From Deltaproteobacteria bacterium RBG_13_61_14 (GTDB lineage: Bacteria; RBG-13-61-14): a stretch of DNA of 7,413 nt. Every line of letters starts with the position of its first letter. Position 1 is the stretch's first letter. Shown in pieces: positions 1 to 7,413 of the stretch. The stretch is taken from positions 50,351-57,763 of the forward strand of contig MGQK01000021.1 of assembly GCA_001797815.1 (NCBI GenBank). The letters are read 5' to 3'. Both the position numbers and the translations under genes were made by a program. The notes beneath the pieces are model-generated. The model made no database searches. It saw only the letters and a list, made by a program, of their open reading frames with translations, and was not told the origin of the DNA.

Positions 1-2031
1 GATCAGCCTTCCACGGGCCCCACCAGGCTCTACTATGCCAACAGCTCCACCGGATGGTCCATCGAGGACTATGGATGGACCGTGAGCAACCCGGAGATGA
101 CGGTGCTGGCAAGCCAGGGGGCCGACCTCTTCCTGGCGACGGCGGCGAGAACCGGGGGTAACGTCGAAATTCTGTACTACTCGCGCCTGGACGGGACTTG
201 GTCCGAGGCGGAGAACGTCTCCAACAGCCCGGTCCGTTCCGTGAACCCGACCCTGGCCGTGGACCAAGCGGGCAGGCCCCACCTGGCCTGGGTGGAAAGG
301 GGCCAGGGCCAGAGCAGTTCCATCGCTTACAGCTACCGAGATCCGGTGGTGGGATGGAGCGCCCCGGTTACCGTGGCTGCCTTGTCCAATAACCAGGCCC
401 TGCCGGCCATGGCGGTGGATGCAGTCGGCACGATGCACATCGTATGGAAAGACGACGCCTTGGATCAAGCGGGCCAAAGCTTGTATTGGTCGGTAAACCC
501 GACAGGGGCATGGTCAATGCCGTCCTCGATTCTTTCCGATGTCGGCCGTTTCCCGGCCGAGATTCTTGTCTTGAGCGGCGATGGCGGGGTCCTGGTGACG
601 ACGCAGGGACGGACGAGACAGCAAGTGCGGCCGCTGCTAGGGTTACGACTGGTGGATGGGCAATGGTCGGCGGCGCAGACGATAGCAGCTCTTTCCGATC
701 CAGTTGAGCAAGATCAACTTGTTGACGACCATGGCATCGCGGTCTATTTGCAGCATGGAGACCTTGCCTGGTTCTGGGACGGGAGCCAATTCCAGCCCCT
801 GGAAAACTTCCTCAAGCACCTGTCCGGCCTGGGATACGACCCCGCGGGCGCGGTCACGCCAACCGTTGCCTTCGACCTCCTCGGACATCTGCACATGGCT
901 TTCTCATCCACCCCGGACGTTGACCCCATCTATCACCGCTTCATCATCAGGGATTCCGATTGCGATGGGCTGAACGACGTCCGCGAGGCGGCCTTGGGGT
1001 TGGACCCCTATGCAAATGATTCCGACGGCGATGGTCTCACCGATGGCGACGAAGTCATGATCTACGGCACGGACCCGCTCGATCCTGACACCGATGGCGA
1101 CGAGCTAGGGGATGGCTTCGAGGTATTTTTCTGCCAGGCCGATCCTCCTTATCTCTGCCTGGATCCGCTGGATTGGGATACGGACGACGACGGCATCACC
1201 GACGGATATGAGGTGGCCGCCATGAGTAATGACCCGCCGCTCAATCCCTTTGATCCGGCGGATGCAATGCTGGACTTCGACGGAGACGAACTGGAAAACC
1301 TGCACGAGTATTGGAACAGCAGCGATCCCTGGAGCCCCGAGCCTTACCCGAGCCCCACTTTGACCATTCCTTCAATGATCGGATGTTTCTTCTGGGGAGA
1401 GGCGGACGGAGACGGGTACGTCCTGGGTGCAGACCGCGTCACTCTCCGAAGCAAATGCCTCGGACTTCCCACCATCTATTCCAACGTCATCCCGCCCAAT
1501 GGAGACACTCAGGAACTGGATGGACTGGAAAACTTATACAATCCCAGCTCGTGTTCAAAGGGCGACATGTTCATTCTGGAGCGAATGATCTTGCAAGAAC
1601 CAATCAGCAATCTGAATGGCCAGGCCGCCGCACTCGAACTTGAGCCTTTGCCGTCGTTGCCAGTCGAAGTTGGATCCACTGTGCGCATCACCTTTAATGT
1701 GAGAAATAAGAATACGATGGGCGAGCCGCCCTATTCCGTTTTTTATTCCTCCGGCTTTGCCGTGTTCTTCGAGATCGATCCCGCGTCCACGGGCGCCGCC
1801 ACCCTGATGGGCGGAGACGGATGGCACACCTCTTTCCCGGGCGCCCGTTTAGATTTCTCTGGGCCGATCGCCGAGAAGGCCCCCGCGTCCATGGTGCTTC
1901 GCCTGGACGCTCCCGGCGACATCTATGTCAACGCCTTTATTCCACCATGCGGGGATTACTTGAATCAGCTGGGCAGATGGTGCCCCGAAATCGTCGCCGC
2001 GCCGGTGATGATCACTGCGGTGGATAACTAA
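1..2031 (+). CDS. Secreted-type beta-propeller / calcium-binding-repeat / dockerin-like protein, 5' end missing
   Basis: The reading frame is open from base 1, so the protein starts upstream; a GTG at 82 is only an internal codon. The visible part is 676 residues. Residues 1 to about 310 hold BNR/sialidase-like beta-propeller repeats, seen as recurring blocks such as NPTLAVDQAGRPHLAW (244 on), LPAMAVDAVGTMHIVW (400 on) and TPTVAFDLLGHLHMAF (856 on), with YYS/WS blades between. Five Asp-rich calcium-binding repeats follow (952-1329). Next is a degenerate dockerin-like segment (about 1396-1590: EADGDGY, then GDMFILERMIL). Last is a beta-rich, possibly Ig- or cohesin-like domain opening with EVGSTVRITFNV. 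Paired cysteines and the calcium repeats suggest an extracellular location. No C-terminal anchor or sorting motif is visible. The substrate is unknown and BNR-type propellers are not necessarily sialidases. It ends with TAA, about 150 bases before a terminator-like palindrome. Confidence 0.8.
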   Translation, partial: DQPSTGPTRLYYANSSTGWSIEDYGWTVSNPEMTVLASQGADLFLATAARTGGNVEILYYSRLDGTWSEAENVSNSPVRSVNPTLAVDQAGRPHLAWVERGQGQSSSIAYSYRDPVVGWSAPVTVAALSNNQALPAMAVDAVGTMHIVWKDDALDQAGQSLYWSVNPTGAWSMPSSILSDVGRFPAEILVLSGDGGVLVTTQGRTRQQVRPLLGLRLVDGQWSAAQTIAALSDPVEQDQLVDDHGIAVYLQHGDLAWFWDGSQFQPLENFLKHLSGLGYDPAGAVTPTVAFDLLGHLHMAFSSTPDVDPIYHRFIIRDSDCDGLNDVREAALGLDPYANDSDGDGLTDGDEVMIYGTDPLDPDTDGDELGDGFEVFFCQADPPYLCLDPLDWDTDDDGITDGYEVAAMSNDPPLNPFDPADAMLDFDGDELENLHEYWNSSDPWSPEPYPSPTLTIPSMIGCFFWGEADGDGYVLGADRVTLRSKCLGLPTIYSNVIPPNGDTQELDGLENLYNPSSCSKGDMFILERMILQEPISNLNGQAAALELEPLPSLPVEVGSTVRITFNVRNKNTMGEPPYSVFYSSGFAVFFEIDPASTGAATLMGGDGWHTSFPGARLDFSGPIAEKAPASMVLRLDAPGDIYVNAFIPPCGDYLNQLGRWCPEIVAAPVMITAVDN
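952..1329 (+). repeat. Five tandem Asp-rich calcium-binding (thrombospondin type 3-like) repeats
   Basis: Within the first gene, DxDxDG-type loops begin at 952 (DSDCDG), 1018 (DSDGDG), 1087 (DTDGDE), 1177 (DTDDDG) and 1273 (DFDGDE). Each is followed by a (G/A)xEV-type helix and a DP turn. The spacing grows from 22-23 to 30-32 residues along the array. In known families such repeats bind calcium and stiffen a stalk between extracellular domains; here they separate the propeller from the C-terminal module. This is coding repetition, not a DNA repeat element. Confidence 0.85.
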
Positions 2032-2510: not shown

Positions 2511-2528
2511 ACTCATTTTCAAAACTTT
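2511..2528 (+). repeat. Left terminal inverted repeat of the insertion sequence
   Basis: ACTCATTTTCAAAACTTT matches the complement of 4351-4368 at 17 of 18 positions. A second TTTCAA motif lies about 21 bases inward (near 2538). The right end also carries a second TTTTCAA, 15 bases inward, so these may be subterminal transposase-binding motifs. Confidence 0.85.
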
Positions 2529-2598
2529 TCGGTTGAATTTCAAGATTTTTCCGCCGTAACTGACTGATTTTCTTCAAGTCCGCTTTCGCCCACCCTCA

Positions 2599-2610
2599 AA
2601 ATGTAGTGTC
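2599..2610 (+). repeat. Short direct repeat upstream of the transposase (copy 1)
   Basis: AAATGTAGTGTC here recurs as AAATGTAGTGCC at 4287-4298, just after the transposase stop. The two copies match at 11 of 12 positions in the same orientation. A related CGTAGTGTCC lies in the first codons of the gene (2694 on). The function is unknown; it may be a transposase or host-factor site. Confidence 0.4.
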
Positions 2611-2640
2611 TAATTATACCAGGCAGCCGTCGCTTTTTTC

Positions 2641-2669
2641 TTGACATCAGCTTCGATATATGCGATTAT
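2641..2669 (+). promoter_or_regulatory. Sigma-70-type promoter of the transposase, predicting a leaderless mRNA
   Basis: A perfect -35 TTGACA (2641-2646) is separated by 17 bases from GATTAT (2664-2669), a 4 of 6 match to TATAAT. Counting the last -10 base as -7 puts the transcription start at 2676, exactly the A of the transposase start codon. No Shine-Dalgarno sequence precedes that codon (ATTATTGCCTC), which is consistent with leaderless translation. Confidence 0.6.
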
Positions 2670-2675
2670 TGCCTC

Positions 2676-4274
2676 ATGTTCGTCAGAGTAAAGCGTAGTG
2701 TCCAGAATGGCCGGGAATATAAGTACCTGCAAATCGTGCACTCGGTGCGGCAGGGCGCAGACGTGCGCCAAAAGGTGATTGCCAACCTGGGGCGGGCCGA
2801 GGAGTTGTTGGCCGGAGACGGTCTGGACAACCTGATTCGCAGCCTGGTCAAATTCAGCCAGCGGTTGCGGGTGATCGAGGCCGGGAAAAAGGCGGGAGTA
2901 GATTCCTGCCGGTCAAAGGCGTGGGGTCCGGCGCTGGTGTTCGGGAGGTTGTGGGAGGAACAGGGCCTGCGGGAAGTGATCGCCAAACTGGCGGAAGGCC
3001 GGCGGTTTGGGTTTGAGGTGGAGCGGGTGTCGTTTGCGCTGGCGTTGCAGCGGCTGTGCGAGCCGGGGAGCGACCTGCAGGGTTCGGAGTGGTTGAGGAC
3101 GGTGGAGTCGCCGGGGTTCGGGGAGATCGAGCTGCACCAGATGTACCGCGCGGTGGGCTGGCTTTACGAGAACCGTTATGAGTTGGAGCGCGAGCTATTT
3201 TTTCGGGACCGCGATCTATTCAATCGCGAGCTCGACCTGGTGTTTGTGGACACCACCTCGACTTATGTTTACCGGGACGCGGAGACCGAGTGGACGCGGC
3301 GGGGTTACAGCCGGGACCATCGGCCGGACCTTCCGCAGTTGGTGTTGTGCGTGGCGGTGGACCGGTTGGGCTGGCCGATCTCGTGGGAGGTGTTTCCCGG
3401 CAACACCGCGGACGCCAAGGCCTTTGCCCAGACCATCGCCAAGTTCCGGGAGCGGTTTCAGATCCGGCGGGTGAGTATTGTCGCTGACCGGGGGATGATC
3501 GGCCGGGAGGCGATCAAGCTGCTCACGGATGATGAGCGGTGTCCCTACGATTTCATTTTAGGCTGCCGGTTGCGGAAGGCGAAGGAGGTGCGGGAGGAGG
3601 TTTTGTCGCGGGCGGGGCGGTATCAGGAGGTGGCGGCGAACCTGAAGGTGAAGGAAGTGGTGGTGGAGGGCCGGCGGTACGTGGTGTGCCGGAACGAGGA
3701 AGAGGCGGCGAAGGACGCGGCGGCGCGGGAATCAATCGTGGCGCGTTTGCGGGAGAAGCTCTCCGCGGGGCAGCAAAAGAGCCTGGTGGGTAACCTGGGT
3801 TATCGGCGGTTCTTGAGGGGTGCGAAGGGTTCGTGGTTGATTGACGAGGAGGCGGTGAAAGCGGACGCTCGTTTTGATGGGGTGTTCGTATTGCGGACCA
3901 ACCTGGACCTGCCCGCGGCGGAGATCGCCACGACTTACAAAGGATTGTGGCGGGTGGAGCGGACGTTCCGGGAAGAGAAGTCCACCCTGGAGGTAAGGCC
4001 GATCTATCACCACCAGGACGAGACCCGGATCGGCCACATCGTGGCGAGCTTCTTGGCGCTGCGGCTGGAGGTGGACTTGCAGCGGCGCTTGGAGGGGAAG
4101 GGGATCGAGGCGCCCTGGCCCAACCTGATGCGGGACCTCGCCCAGGTTCAGGCCGTTCACTTGGACATGGATAAAATGAGCTATATTGTCCGGACCGATC
4201 TGGAAGGCTATGCGTTTAACGGGTTCAAGGCCGCCGGGGTCCGGGTTCCGAACCGAGTCAGCCTGGCGAACTGA
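2676..4274 (+). CDS. IS1634-type DDE transposase
   Basis: This 532-residue protein catalyses cut-and-paste or copy movement of its own insertion sequence by binding the terminal repeats. The N terminus (MFVRVKRSVQNGREYKYLQI, then VRQKVIANLGR) is typical of IS1634-like transposases and supports this start despite the lack of a ribosome site. The catalytic triad is visible: D192 in LVFVDTTSTY, D271 in VADRGMI and E428 in YKGLWRVERTFREEK. The last has the IS4-superfamily Y-(2)-R-(3)-E-(6)-K spacing (Y421, E428, K435), with Leu in place of Arg. The frame is intact and the length full, so the enzyme may be active. The coding strand is strongly G-rich (29 G against 9 C in 3601-3660). No clear terminator follows the stop. 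Confidence 0.93.
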   Translation: MFVRVKRSVQNGREYKYLQIVHSVRQGADVRQKVIANLGRAEELLAGDGLDNLIRSLVKFSQRLRVIEAGKKAGVDSCRSKAWGPALVFGRLWEEQGLREVIAKLAEGRRFGFEVERVSFALALQRLCEPGSDLQGSEWLRTVESPGFGEIELHQMYRAVGWLYENRYELERELFFRDRDLFNRELDLVFVDTTSTYVYRDAETEWTRRGYSRDHRPDLPQLVLCVAVDRLGWPISWEVFPGNTADAKAFAQTIAKFRERFQIRRVSIVADRGMIGREAIKLLTDDERCPYDFILGCRLRKAKEVREEVLSRAGRYQEVAANLKVKEVVVEGRRYVVCRNEEEAAKDAAARESIVARLREKLSAGQQKSLVGNLGYRRFLRGAKGSWLIDEEAVKADARFDGVFVLRTNLDLPAAEIATTYKGLWRVERTFREEKSTLEVRPIYHHQDETRIGHIVASFLALRLEVDLQRRLEGKGIEAPWPNLMRDLAQVQAVHLDMDKMSYIVRTDLEGYAFNGFKAAGVRVPNRVSLAN

Positions 4275-4286
4275 ACGAAAAAAGAT

Positions 4287-4298
4287 AAATGTAGTGCC
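4287..4298 (+). repeat. Short direct repeat downstream of the transposase (copy 2)
   Basis: AAATGTAGTGCC matches the copy at 2599-2610 at 11 of 12 positions. The pair brackets the transposase gene inside the terminal inverted repeats. Confidence 0.4.
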
Positions 4299-4350
4299 AA
4301 GAACTTTTTGGTATGTTGTAACCTATTGAATATACGGACTTTTGAAAATC

Positions 4351-4368
4351 AAAGTGTTGAAAATGAGT
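4351..4368 (-). repeat. Right terminal inverted repeat of the insertion sequence
   Basis: Read on the - strand this is ACTCATTTTCAACACTTT, differing from the left end by one base. It lies 76 bases after the transposase stop codon and ends 7 bases before the -35 element of the downstream operon. Confidence 0.85.
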
Positions 4369-4375
4369 AGAGAAC

Positions 4376-4404
4376 TTCCCAAAGTTTTATCGTTGAGGTA
4401 TAAT
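4376..4404 (+). promoter_or_regulatory. Sigma-70-type promoter of the sensor-kinase operon
   Basis: A perfect -10 TATAAT (4399-4404) is preceded at 17 bases by TTCCCA (4376-4381), a 4 of 6 match to TTGACA. The predicted start is near 4411, leaving a leader of about 96 nt. The -35 begins 7 bases after the inverted repeat of the insertion sequence, so the core promoter belongs to host DNA but everything upstream of it has been replaced. No outward -35 in the repeat is correctly spaced for this -10. Confidence 0.6.
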
Positions 4405-4434
4405 TTTATTCAGATAGTCTCGTGGCAAGCGGTT

Positions 4435-4459
4435 CCGCCATGAGCGGGATGATTTTTTT
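4435..4459 (+). promoter_or_regulatory. Short hairpin plus seven Ts in the operon leader
   Basis: CCGC-CATGA-GCGG (4435-4447) is followed by GATGA and then TTTTTTT (4453-4459). The upstream TGGC...GCCA could pair in a competing way. The shape suggests a weak attenuator in the leader, but the stem is only 4 bp and the T run starts 5 bases after it, so this is speculative. Confidence 0.25.
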
Positions 4460-4489: not shown

Positions 4490-4497
4490 AGGAGGAG
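4490..4497 (+). promoter_or_regulatory. Strong ribosome binding site of the sensor kinase
   Basis: AGGAGGAG lies 9 bases before the ATG at 4507, within a longer AGGAGGAGGAGAAGAG purine run. It fixes the start codon of the kinase and predicts efficient initiation, unless the hairpin that begins at the start codon interferes. Confidence 0.8.
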
Positions 4498-4506
4498 GAG
4501 AAGAGC

Positions 4507-6558
4507 ATGGGAATTGTCACCACAATTCCCGAAAAATGTCGGCGTTGTTACACCTGCATTCGGGAATGCCCGGCCAAGGCGATCAAGGTGGAACAGGGCC
4601 AGGCCACGGTGATCGAGGAACGGTGCATCGCCTGCGGTAATTGCCTTAAAGTCTGCGCCCAACAAGCCAAGCAAATCAAAGACAGCACGCCGGAAGTGAA
4701 GCAGATGCTTCAGGCGAAGGAGAGGGTTTTTGCCTGCCTGGCGCCTTCGTTTCCGGCTGCCTTTGTGGCGCAAAGTCCCTGGAAAATCATCAGCGCCCTG
4801 CGCCAACTGGGTTTCGAGGAAGTATGGAATGTGTCGTTCGGGGCGGAGCTGATCAGCCGGGAATATGCCCGGCTGTTTCCGGGAATGAAAGACAAGGGGA
4901 AATTCATGATCGCTTCCCCTTGCCCGGCCATTGTTTCCTTTGTCGAACGCTATCTTCCCTCGCTGGTGGATGCGCTGGCTCCGATTGTTTCGCCCATGAT
5001 CGCCACCGCGCGCGCGATTCATCACCGCCACGGGCCCGAGGTGCGCGTGGTCTTTATTGGTCCGTGCACGGCCAAGAAGGCGGAAATTCTCGAGTCGTCG
5101 GTGGCGGGGGAGGTGACCAGCGTGGTGACCTATAGCGGCCTGGCGAAGATGTTGGAGGAAGCCCGAATTCAGCCCGCCGAATTGCCGGCGAGTCGGTTCG
5201 ACGGCCCTTCGGTTTACTCGGGTCAGGCCTTCCCGATCCCGGGGGGTCTGCTGCGGACCGCGGGACTCAGCGCGGACATTCTCAACAATGATATTATCTC
5301 CACCGAGGGCAAGGACCGGGTGCTCAGCGTGCTCAATGAACTGGCCCGAGGCCACCGCCAGGCGCTTTTAGTGGACGCGCTCTTTTGCGAAGGGTGCATC
5401 AGCGGACCGGTGATGCAAAACGATCTGAGCGTGTTCGCGCGCAAGCAGATCGTGATTAATTTCATCAATGAGCTGAAAGAGCAGGCGGATTTAGGCGCGA
5501 GGGACCGGACCGGGGAAGAGTTCCAAGACCTGGATTTGAGCCGGTCGTTCACCAGCCGACCGATTGTGCTGGCCCAGCCTCCGGAGGAAGACATCAACCG
5601 GGTGCTCGGGTCCATGAAAAAATACCAGGCCGAAGACCAGCTCAACTGCGGGGCCTGCGGCTACCCCACCTGCCGGGAGAAGGCGATCGCGGTCTGCCAG
5701 GGGCTGGCCGAGGCCGAGATGTGCCTGCCCTACCTGGTGGGGGAGTTGGAGTTGACTTGCCAGGAATTGAAAAAATCCAATGAGGATTTGGCCTCGACCC
5801 AGGAGCGGCTGGTGCACACGGAACGCCTGGCTTCCCTGGGTCAGCTTTCCGCGGGGGTGGCCCACGAAATTAACAACCCGCTCGGGACCATCCTCCTCTA
5901 TTCCCATGTGCTGCTCAAACAACTCCAGAGCGACGATCCCACCCAAGAAAAAAACCTCCGCATGATCGTGAGCGAGGCCACGCGCTGCAAAAACATCGTC
6001 CGCGGCCTCCTGGACTTTGCCCGCCAGTCCCGGGTCTCCAAGGCTCCGACCAACCTGGCCGAATTATTGAAAGAGGTGGTTCTGATCCAGAGCCCCGCCG
6101 CCGAGTCGGCGAACGTCCGCTTGTCCAACGAGGTGTCCCCGGACTTGCCCACGATCATGATTGACAGCACCCAGATCAAGCAGATGCTCATCAATCTGGT
6201 GCAAAACAGCGTTGACGCCATCAGCGGCGCCGGGGAGGTCAAGATTTGCGCCCACCCCTGCCAAGGGAGCGAGGCCGTGGAAATCACGGTAGCGGACAAC
6301 GGGTGCGGGATTTCCAAGGAGAACCTCTCGAAACTTTTTACGCCCTTTTTTACCACGAAGAAGATGGGAAAGGGGACGGGACTGGGCCTGGCCATCGCCT
6401 ATGGCGTGGTGAAAATGCATTCCGGTGATATTTCCGTCCAGAGCGAGGAGGGCCAGGGGACGACGGTGCTGATCAAGCTTCCCCGGGGACGAGAAGAGAA
6501 TTTCAACTCCCGGGAAATTCTCGCTAACTCCCCGCCTTCGGGAGAGAGGGTTTCTTGA
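4507..6558 (+). CDS. [FeFe]-hydrogenase-like sensor histidine kinase (group C1-like)
   Basis: This 683-residue soluble protein joins a hydrogenase-type sensor to a kinase. Residues 11-50 carry two [4Fe-4S] ferredoxin motifs (C11/14/17/21 and C40/43/46/50). About 65-350 is the [FeFe]-hydrogenase H-domain: SPCPAIV (C139), GPCTAKKAE (C187, K190) and FCEGCISGP (C294, C297). Residues 381-406 form a Fes [4Fe-4S] domain (C381, C384, C389, C406). A coiled coil leads to HisKA (AHEINNPLG, H453) and HATPase_c (N567, DNGCG at 597-601, GKGTGLGLA at about 621-629). There is no membrane segment or PAS domain. It probably senses H2 or redox state in the cytoplasm and phosphorylates the receivers encoded next. 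Pro replaces the proton-transfer Cys, so high hydrogenase turnover is unlikely. The start is set by a strong ribosome site. The last 20 or so residues look like a non-conserved tail encoded by hairpin DNA. Confidence 0.92.
   Translation: MGIVTTIPEKCRRCYTCIRECPAKAIKVEQGQATVIEERCIACGNCLKVCAQQAKQIKDSTPEVKQMLQAKERVFACLAPSFPAAFVAQSPWKIISALRQLGFEEVWNVSFGAELISREYARLFPGMKDKGKFMIASPCPAIVSFVERYLPSLVDALAPIVSPMIATARAIHHRHGPEVRVVFIGPCTAKKAEILESSVAGEVTSVVTYSGLAKMLEEARIQPAELPASRFDGPSVYSGQAFPIPGGLLRTAGLSADILNNDIISTEGKDRVLSVLNELARGHRQALLVDALFCEGCISGPVMQNDLSVFARKQIVINFINELKEQADLGARDRTGEEFQDLDLSRSFTSRPIVLAQPPEEDINRVLGSMKKYQAEDQLNCGACGYPTCREKAIAVCQGLAEAEMCLPYLVGELELTCQELKKSNEDLASTQERLVHTERLASLGQLSAGVAHEINNPLGTILLYSHVLLKQLQSDDPTQEKNLRMIVSEATRCKNIVRGLLDFARQSRVSKAPTNLAELLKEVVLIQSPAAESANVRLSNEVSPDLPTIMIDSTQIKQMLINLVQNSVDAISGAGEVKICAHPCQGSEAVEITVADNGCGISKENLSKLFTPFFTTKKMGKGTGLGLAIAYGVVKMHSGDISVQSEEGQGTTVLIKLPRGREENFNSREILANSPPSGERVS
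4509..4530 (+). promoter_or_regulatory. Perfect 9-4-9 inverted repeat on the kinase start codon
   Basis: GGGAATTGT, the spacer CACC and ACAATTCCC form a perfect dyad beginning at the G of the ATG and covering codons 1-8. It could be an operator about 98 bases after the predicted transcription start, or an RNA hairpin that limits initiation next to a strong ribosome site. It may also be chance, since the codons fit an ordinary ferredoxin N terminus. Confidence 0.4.
6496..6544 (+). repeat. Two consecutive stem-loops in the last codons of the kinase
   Basis: GAGAATTTC-N9-GAAATTCTC (6496-6522) is a perfect 9-bp stem. It is followed by CTCCCCG-CCTT-CGGGAG (6528-6544), a 6-bp stem with one bulged C, then GAGGGTTTCTTGA. 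They encode the tail after the conserved kinase end (TTVLIKLPRG). The second stem resembles the CTCCCC...GGGAGAGGG palindromic repeats common in bacterial intergenic DNA, so the gene may have been extended by such an element. The hairpins could also moderate transcription into the receivers. Confidence 0.4.
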
Positions 6559-6589
6559 TCGCCGCCCGCCGCGGCAAGAGGATTCAGTC

Positions 6590-7012
6590 ATGGCCGAAGC
6601 AGCGACCTTGATCATGGTAGTGGATGATGATTTCGACGCCCTCGAAATTATCCGGCACATCCTCGAAGCCCGGGGCTATCGGACCCGTTGCTTTCTGGAT
6701 CCGATGGAGGCCTTGCAACAGATGGCCGCCGAAAAACCGCGCCTGGTGGTCACCGATTTGATGATGAAAGCCCTGGACACCGGCTTCTCCTTTTCCCGCC
6801 AGATCAAGTTCGACCCCCGCTACCGGGAGATTCCGATTATCCTGATCACCGCGGCCTTAAGCATGCGGGGGCTGGACCTCCAACCCCGGACGCCCAAGGA
6901 TTTGGAGAGGATGGGGATTGACGCCTTTTTTGATAAACCGGTGGTCGCGGGGGAGCTGGTGGCGAAGGTGGAGGAACTGCTCCATCGGCGCGGGAAGGAA
7001 CCGGAGCGATGA
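6590..7012 (+). CDS. Stand-alone receiver-domain response regulator
   Basis: This 140-residue single-domain protein probably accepts phosphate from the kinase 31 bases upstream. The acidic pocket is D12/D13 in MVVDDDF, the phosphoacceptor is D56 in VVTDLMM, and the switch and lysine residues are T87 (LITAA) and K116 (FFDKPV). There is no output domain. The stretch between T87 and K116 is 29 residues, against 22 in the receiver encoded next, because of an added RGLDLQPRTPKDLE segment in the alpha4 region that signals to partners. AAGAGGA sits 7 bases before the ATG as ribosome site. The stop overlaps the next start (ATGA). It may act as a phosphate shuttle or a protein-binding switch; the partner is unknown. 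Confidence 0.9.
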   Translation: MAEAATLIMVVDDDFDALEIIRHILEARGYRTRCFLDPMEALQQMAAEKPRLVVTDLMMKALDTGFSFSRQIKFDPRYREIPIILITAALSMRGLDLQPRTPKDLERMGIDAFFDKPVVAGELVAKVEELLHRRGKEPER

Positions 7013-7413
7013 ACCCGGAAACCCTCCGGATCTTGGTCGTGGATGACGAGGCCGGGATCCGCGAAGGCTGCCGTCAGATCTTGACCATGGAAGGCTACGA
7101 AGTGGACGTGGCCGAGGACGGGCGGGCCGGTCTGAAAGTGTTCGAGGAGCGGAAAAATTACGCGGTGGCCTTGATTGATCTGAAGATGCCGGGGATGAGC
7201 GGACTGGAACTGATTGAACAGATCCGGGCTCGGGATGAAGACCTGGTCATGTTTGTGATCACCGCCTACGCGACCTTTGAGACCGCGGTGGAAGCTACCA
7301 AGAAAGGGGCGTATGGCTACATTCCCAAGCCCTTTACTCCGGACGAACTGCTCTTGCCGATCAAACGCGGCTTGGAAGCCCGCGCCCTGTCCTTGGAGGC
7401 CAAGCGGCTGCGG
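7009..7413 (+). CDS. Second response regulator, receiver domain only in window, 3' end missing
   Basis: The ATG at 7009 overlaps the previous stop as ATGA, so the genes are probably translationally coupled. The 135 visible codons begin MNPETLRILVVDDEAGIREG and form one receiver domain: D12/D13, phosphoacceptor D57 in ALIDLKMPGM, T85 in VITAYAT, and K107 with Y104 in GYIPKPF. The frame then continues into a charged helix (RGLEARALSLEAKRLR) and is still open at the last base, so an output domain lies outside. The receiver resembles those of NtrC-type sigma-54 activators and of receiver-kinase hybrids. The LSLEAKRLR linker leans slightly towards a receiver-PAS-kinase hybrid, but this cannot be settled here. 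Its position after the hydrogenase-like kinase makes it the likely downstream arm of the relay. Confidence 0.85.
   Translation, partial: MNPETLRILVVDDEAGIREGCRQILTMEGYEVDVAEDGRAGLKVFEERKNYAVALIDLKMPGMSGLELIEQIRARDEDLVMFVITAYATFETAVEATKKGAYGYIPKPFTPDELLLPIKRGLEARALSLEAKRLR

Follow-up and report, generated by a model that had tools for sequence, protein, structure and literature searches.

Sensory [FeFe]-hydrogenases still carry the label 'putative', for want of direct evidence from physiology and of signalling partners. In HydDB, group C1 is listed as 'histidine kinase-linked (putative)' (PMC5037454), a functional label for a sensory [FeFe]-hydrogenase acting via a histidine kinase (HK). We describe a gene to which this label could apply from Deltaproteobacteria bacterium RBG_13_61_14, encoding a sensor kinase with a hydrogenase-like H-domain and followed closely by two genes with receiver (REC) domains; the three genes are referred to below as the cassette. 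They lie in a stretch of 7,413 nucleotides (the window; G000:C21:50351-57763) of a 4.74 Mb genome that is 95% complete. The protein type is already known but uncharacterised (BfuT; HydDB group C). The cassette offers a concrete three-protein chain that recurs across no fewer than 14 phyla and is linked physically to a bifurcating hydrogenase, which makes H2-dependent phosphotransfer directly testable.

TmHydS of T. maritima (group C, M2f) and TamHydS (group D) share with the sensor kinase two [4Fe-4S] motifs, an H-domain, a C-terminal Cx2Cx4Cx16C motif that is a published signature of groups C and D, and the loss of the proton-transfer cysteine (PMC8163306). Where a histidine kinase is fused here, TmHydS carries a PAS domain and TamHydS nothing, and the protein described here differs from both in having CxxC in its L3 motif and glycine at the equivalent of M353 in the hydrogenase CpI. 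The secondary structure of TamHydS shifts on exposure to H2 (PMC13104023). BfuT, an HK-bearing protein whose gene adjoins those of group A3 in Hydrogenedentota and Calditrichota, has been classed as C3, and the best HydDB C1 match of the C1 proteins in the same study is without a HATPase domain (PMC11406978). Because HydDB defines C1 as HK-linked whereas PMC11406978 calls the HK-bearing type C3, the choice between these labels is unsettled for the present protein, and its placement in group C/D is suggested by layout and nearest clade. An H-domain/kinase protein directly behind bfuA/hydA, as in BfuT, is seen in Calditrichota and Hydrogenedentota loci L060, L077, L084 and L096; however, the receiver and REC-PAS-HK genes go unmentioned in PMC11406978, where 'receiver' and 'response regulator' give no match, and the cassette of our genome stands away from the hydrogenase operon.

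A functional parallel is provided by HoxBC-HoxJ-HoxA (regulatory [NiFe], HydDB group 2b), in which it is established that an H2-sensing hydrogenase acts through a kinase on hydrogenase genes (PMC5037454). That system uses an unrelated metalloenzyme, a separate kinase with PAS and an NtrC-type regulator, and the sensor described here is not a member; a reading as an [NiFe] H2 sensor is ruled out, since the domain is PF02906. No description was found, in the open-access literature searched, of the two partner genes (receiver and receiver-kinase), of the CxxC signature or of the relation between active-site pocket and maturation machinery set out below; subscription papers were not covered, and novelty is provisional.

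Anatomy and fold of the sensor kinase

The sensor kinase and its partners are arranged as follows (window positions):

4507..6558, + strand: sensor kinase, 683 aa (Pfam, motifs, AlphaFold2, PDB match)
4723..5409, + strand: H-domain with altered H-cluster motifs (alignments of 85+ homologues and of 51 full-length homologues)
6590..7012, + strand: stand-alone receiver, 140 aa, without output domain (PF00072 Response_reg, 3.3e-15)
7009..7413, continuing to G000:C21:58855, + strand: N-terminal receiver of a 498-aa receiver-PAS (weak)-HisKA-HATPase protein (Response_reg, 5.5e-30; L009:360-1856)

A first-pass annotation, made from the DNA letters, had placed ferredoxin clusters, an H-domain, an iron-sulphur (FeS) cluster and HisKA/HATPase on one soluble polypeptide, and all of these are present. 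Two N-terminal [4Fe-4S] motifs (residues 11-21 and 40-50) precede the H-domain (residues 73-301) and the C-terminal FeS cluster Cx2Cx4Cx16C (residues 381-406), with Pfam matches to PF02906 Fe_hyd_lg_C (1.2e-44), PF04060 FeS (4.9e-9) and Fer4 families. The signalling part matches HisKA (2.4e-14) and HATPase_c (3.1e-28, residues 553-660). Kinase boxes H, N, G1 and G2 are all intact (HEINNP 453, NLVQNSVDA 563, DNGCG 597 and GTGLGL 623), His453 of HEINNP being the phospho-acceptor. The protein is soluble, with no transmembrane segment, and Pfam finds no PAS domain between residues 408 and 444.

In an AlphaFold2 model (51-sequence alignment as input; mean predicted local distance difference test score, pLDDT, 88), the FeS domain runs without a break into a single helix, residues 407-472, that bears His453. 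The model matches CpI (6gm3) with Z 40.0 and 2.6 Å over 350 residues, and CbA5H (8zqd) with Z 41.7; the H-domain is thus predicted to have the CpI/DdHydAB-type hydrogenase fold. The kinase half is 34% identical to the cytoplasmic domain of ZraS (9jfj) over 229 columns, a likeness limited to that half; ZraS itself is a membrane zinc sensor without a hydrogenase module.

Outside the clade of HK-bearing proteins, the nearest relatives are Fer4-H-FeS-PAS proteins, the layout of TmHydS. Together with the group C/D layout and the lost proton-transfer cysteine, this supports the earlier proposal of a histidine kinase fused to an [FeFe]-hydrogenase module of the sensory type. We consider it reasonably likely that the protein is a cytoplasmic sensor kinase for H2 (or H2-linked redox state), HydS-like and of group C, feeding a relay that tunes a bifurcating hydrogenase.

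The conserved cassette and a proposed phosphorelay

The lone receiver that had been noted close behind the kinase gene is borne out by its domain match and a gap of only 31 bp. Its acid pocket D13/D14, phospho-acceptor D56 and K116 are conserved in all 57 cassette receivers compared. A second, overlapping receiver had also been proposed: the 4-bp overlap (ATGA) and the receiver domain hold, but the gene is cut at the window edge and is not receiver-only, encoding instead the 498-aa receiver-kinase, in which 26 residues close to where PAS begins are given as X (Ns in the DNA record). In this protein, receiver residues D12, D13, D57 and K107 and kinase residue H275 are conserved in 63/63 sequences, and the kinase residues as a group in 61-63 of the 63. 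As the second gene encodes a receiver-kinase, the arrangement is better matched by a relay in series, or an integrating one, than by the simple two-way branch first envisaged.

Relatives of the sensor kinase are encoded in at least 518 places in one scan of genome contigs, 80 of which provide the locus counts given here; none was found in viral contigs. The trio kinase-receiver-REC/HK (or receiver-kinase-REC/HK) occurs in 58 of the 80 loci, spread over 14 named phyla and unnamed ones. In 60 loci the sensor kinase stands behind hydA of a HydABC operon, either directly or with the receiver between, and HydC-HydB lie upstream; Rex is found in 26 loci and HydE/F/G maturation genes in 20. A closed genome (L149) has Rex-HydC-HydB-HydA-kinase-REC-REC/HK-HydE-HydG-AspA-HydF in a single 16-kb run. 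With gene order and residue conservation taken together, a signalling chain is far more probable than a chance association of neighbouring genes.

For the working of this chain we favour the following scheme, of which the part from H2 through the H-domain to the kinase draws on homology and the pocket pattern described below, and the part concerning phosphate flow and output on the gene set. The HydE, HydF and HydG maturases that serve the catalytic hydrogenase would also load an H-cluster into the sensor H-domain. Binding of H2, or turnover that would be slow because the proton-transfer cysteine is gone, may then put the N-terminal clusters into another state and shift the H-domain and C-terminal FeS domain to another conformation. 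Since the FeS domain runs straight into the His453 helix, such a change could be read directly as kinase on or off, with no PAS domain involved. Phosphotransfer to both receivers is suggested by the conserved gene set: phosphate would pass both to the stand-alone receiver and to the REC domain of the REC-PAS-HK protein, which would act as an integrating kinase, the second in the chain. At the end of the chain, the output would tune the expression (or activity) of an electron-bifurcating hydrogenase. A sigma-54 NtrC-type regulator, which in some Bacillota and Dehalococcoidia is encoded behind the kinase instead, is a plausible output.

An improbable alternative end point is post-translational, with the soluble receivers binding HydABC (or HydEFG) and gating activity without a transcription factor. 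The position of the cassette within the hydABC operon, mostly with no DNA-binding regulator near (NtrC-type in 11/80 loci), and a lone receiver lacking an output domain would suit such control; yet lone receivers also act as phosphorelay intermediates, output regulators may be encoded elsewhere, and in our genome the cassette and hydA are on different contigs.

The sensor module recurs with other outputs, namely PAS, a sigma-54 activator and a PAS-HK-REC hybrid. At L132:451-2727 (- strand, G336), the Fer4/H-domain/FeS module is fused to a sigma-54 activator and Fis helix-turn-helix as a one-component regulator; its pocket is changed to GCS and the genome is without maturases. At L137:1453-4230 (G191), PAS, HisKA, HATPase and a C-terminal receiver follow in one chain with pocket DPT, and neither maturases nor a group A hydrogenase were found in the genome. 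Bacteroidales (L091, L106, L109, L110, L113) carry a second, diverged sensor-kinase copy on the opposite strand upstream of hydC; these copies have lost the equivalent of CpI K358, and three have also lost an H-cluster cysteine. In G056 (L029/L036), copies apparently without an H-domain consist of a ferredoxin-like open reading frame (ORF) of ~92 aa and a separate FeS-histidine kinase ORF of ~340 aa; similar fragments at the locus edges in G046 (L019/L032) belong to a neighbouring full-length paralogue.

The putative H-cluster site and the machinery to fill it

The H-domain motifs are A79-P80-S81, L1 S-P-C139-P, S162-P163-M164, L2 G-P-C187-T-A-K190 and L3 F-C294-E-G-C297. By alignment, C139, C187, C294 and C297 correspond to the H-cluster cysteines CpI C300, C355, C499 and C503, and A79-P80-S81 and K190 to CpI A230-P231-S232 and K358. 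The four cysteines are invariant in the 51 full-length homologues, and A79, P80, S81 and K190 are conserved in at least 90% of them. The proton-transfer cysteine (CpI C299) is replaced by Pro138 here, relatives having Pro, Ser, Thr, Ala or other residues at this position, and the equivalent of CpI M353 is Gly. Across the HK-bearing clade the L3 pair is CxxC, as opposed to the canonical CxxxC of characterised groups A, B and PAS-type C; this is read from the aligned motif, as some rows carry an extra Cys before it (LCCxGC) that upsets automatic counts. CxxxC is kept in the PAS-bearing relatives (Fer4-H-FeS-PAS: L128, L131, L139) and in the organism's own HydA.

Maturase absence, set by the first-pass annotation as a refuting observation, is not the case in this genome: HydE, HydF and HydG score 305, 570.5 and 529.6 bits against NCBIfam cut-offs of 254.6, 325.55 and 312.15, and all three are encoded with a group A HydA on contig C28. 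Among relatives, the pocket follows the H-cluster machinery (a group A hydrogenase or HydE/F/G in the genome). All 74 rows with machinery keep Ala79-Pro80 and Lys190, whereas Ala-Pro is altered in 11 of the 12 rows without it; in the six genomes at least 90% complete that have neither maturases nor a group A enzyme, Ala-Pro-Ser is changed in every case. The association is strong as a pattern and weak as statistics, because the losses sit in few clades. Such a pattern is expected if the site holds a [2Fe] subcluster where one can be made and the scaffold has been re-used without [2Fe] in some lineages. The argument that ~40% of carriers are without HydF/HydG and would thus have no H-cluster is weakened, most such genomes having group A hydrogenases.

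The main rival, which we regard as rather unlikely, is a redox sensor without the [2Fe] subcluster, in which the H-domain binds only [4Fe-4S] clusters and the kinase reports ferredoxin/NADH poise. It would account for the CxxC spacing and loss of GGG throughout the clade and for the linkage to Rex, a redox repressor family. The kinase is also kept, mostly with its cysteines but with the pocket lost, where maturases and group A enzymes are absent, so that signalling by the scaffold apparently does not require a [2Fe] site. Against this, residues lining the [2Fe] site (the equivalents of CpI A230/P231 and K358) are retained in every genome with the machinery, and sensory hydrogenases with altered pockets do bear H-clusters (PMC8163306). 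Relatives that lack both the machinery and the pocket form a natural control set for the role of the H-cluster in sensing.

Several points nevertheless weigh against an H2-sensing relay. The pocket/machinery association amounts to two well-supported (four total) independent contrasts and has no formal significance. Seven of the 30 carrier genomes at least 90% complete (G130, G189, G328, G338, G372, G423, G426) have group A genes with no HydF match and no HydE above cut-off, which may be due to gaps, to divergence of the maturases or to some other route. In the HK clade the CxxxC of characterised enzymes is replaced by CxxC, and the GGG after the motif is missing. The P1-P3 H-cluster motifs were scarcely found in Hydrogenedentota group C1, and H2 sensing was doubted there (PMC11406978). 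H2 does not reduce the C-terminal cluster of TamHydS (PMC13104023), which, like the CxxC change, speaks for the [4Fe-4S] redox sensor. In our own genome the cassette is outside the hydrogenase operon, and there is no output regulator beside it. We suggest only tentatively the wider reading, that of a widespread H2-signalling phosphorelay in bifurcating-hydrogenase operons, in which the sensor H-cluster would sit on CxxC, a new ligand geometry, and the FeS domain would drive the kinase helix.

Genomic setting and neighbouring genes

Upstream of the sensor kinase, the window contains the following features:

4490..4506, + strand: Shine-Dalgarno-like purine-rich stretch AGGAGGAGGAG ahead of the ATG (sequence)
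4376..4450, + strand: possible leader, with sigma-70-like TTCCCA-17-TATAAT and a terminator-like hairpin followed by a T-run (consensus scan)
2511..4368, + strand: IS1634-family element, transposase at 2676-4274 (NF033559, 1.5e-112; 18-nt terminal inverted repeats)

The leader signals are weak, with site counts in the consensus scan close to those of shuffled sequence. The IS1634 element is single-copy, ends 138 bp upstream of the kinase start and is outside the relay; no clear target duplication was seen at its ends.

Among the sequences compared, the nearest relative is a Poribacteria metagenome-assembled genome (L039; 72% identity over sensor-kinase residues 1-428). On C28 the gene order is HydA - receiver - GAF-HK/HydG - AspA - HydF - HydE, which the Poribacteria relative matches (L145), its kinase cassette likewise lying elsewhere (L039), intact. 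A reading of our cassette as a decayed or horizontally acquired remnant, functionless in this genome, is very improbable. The nearby IS1634 element, the detachment from the hydrogenase operon and the N-terminal ferredoxin-like copies on C28 and C40 would fit it, but catalytic and cluster residues are intact in all three proteins, and the same split arrangement is found in the Poribacteria relative.

The ferredoxin-like copies look like remnants or detached N-terminal modules. One is a 136-aa ORF with two ferredoxin motifs between HydG and AspA (L010:10497-10904, - strand), 58% identical to kinase residues 3-67; the other, on contig C40 (L012:2871-2941), is 71 bp long and matches the beginning of the kinase gene at 80% identity. 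GAF-HK and HydG share one 1113-aa frame (L010:10748-14089, - strand, G000:C28) and are two overlapping ORFs in Poribacteria (L145:6422-8425, 8148-9812), so the single frame may be a genuine fusion or may result from an indel in sequencing. Degeneracy of the group A HydA (TSCSPGW for TSCCPGW) was considered and ruled out, as the motif is identical in A. woodii HydA1 (7q4v).

Downstream of the cassette, a 648-aa kinase with a transmembrane segment, GAF, HisKA and HATPase follows (L009:2021-3967), and beyond it, on the opposite strand of the extended contig (L009), are hypE/hypD/hypF-like genes. The two GAF-HK paralogues are 62% identical. Window positions 1-2031 encode part of a large protein with a bacterial TSP3 calcium-binding repeat (PF18884), the 5' end of which is beyond the window. 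In hydrogenase operons of distant phyla, an aspartate ammonia-lyase gene is found repeatedly beside HydG, on the side towards HydF (L059, L079, L090, L118, L149, L010).

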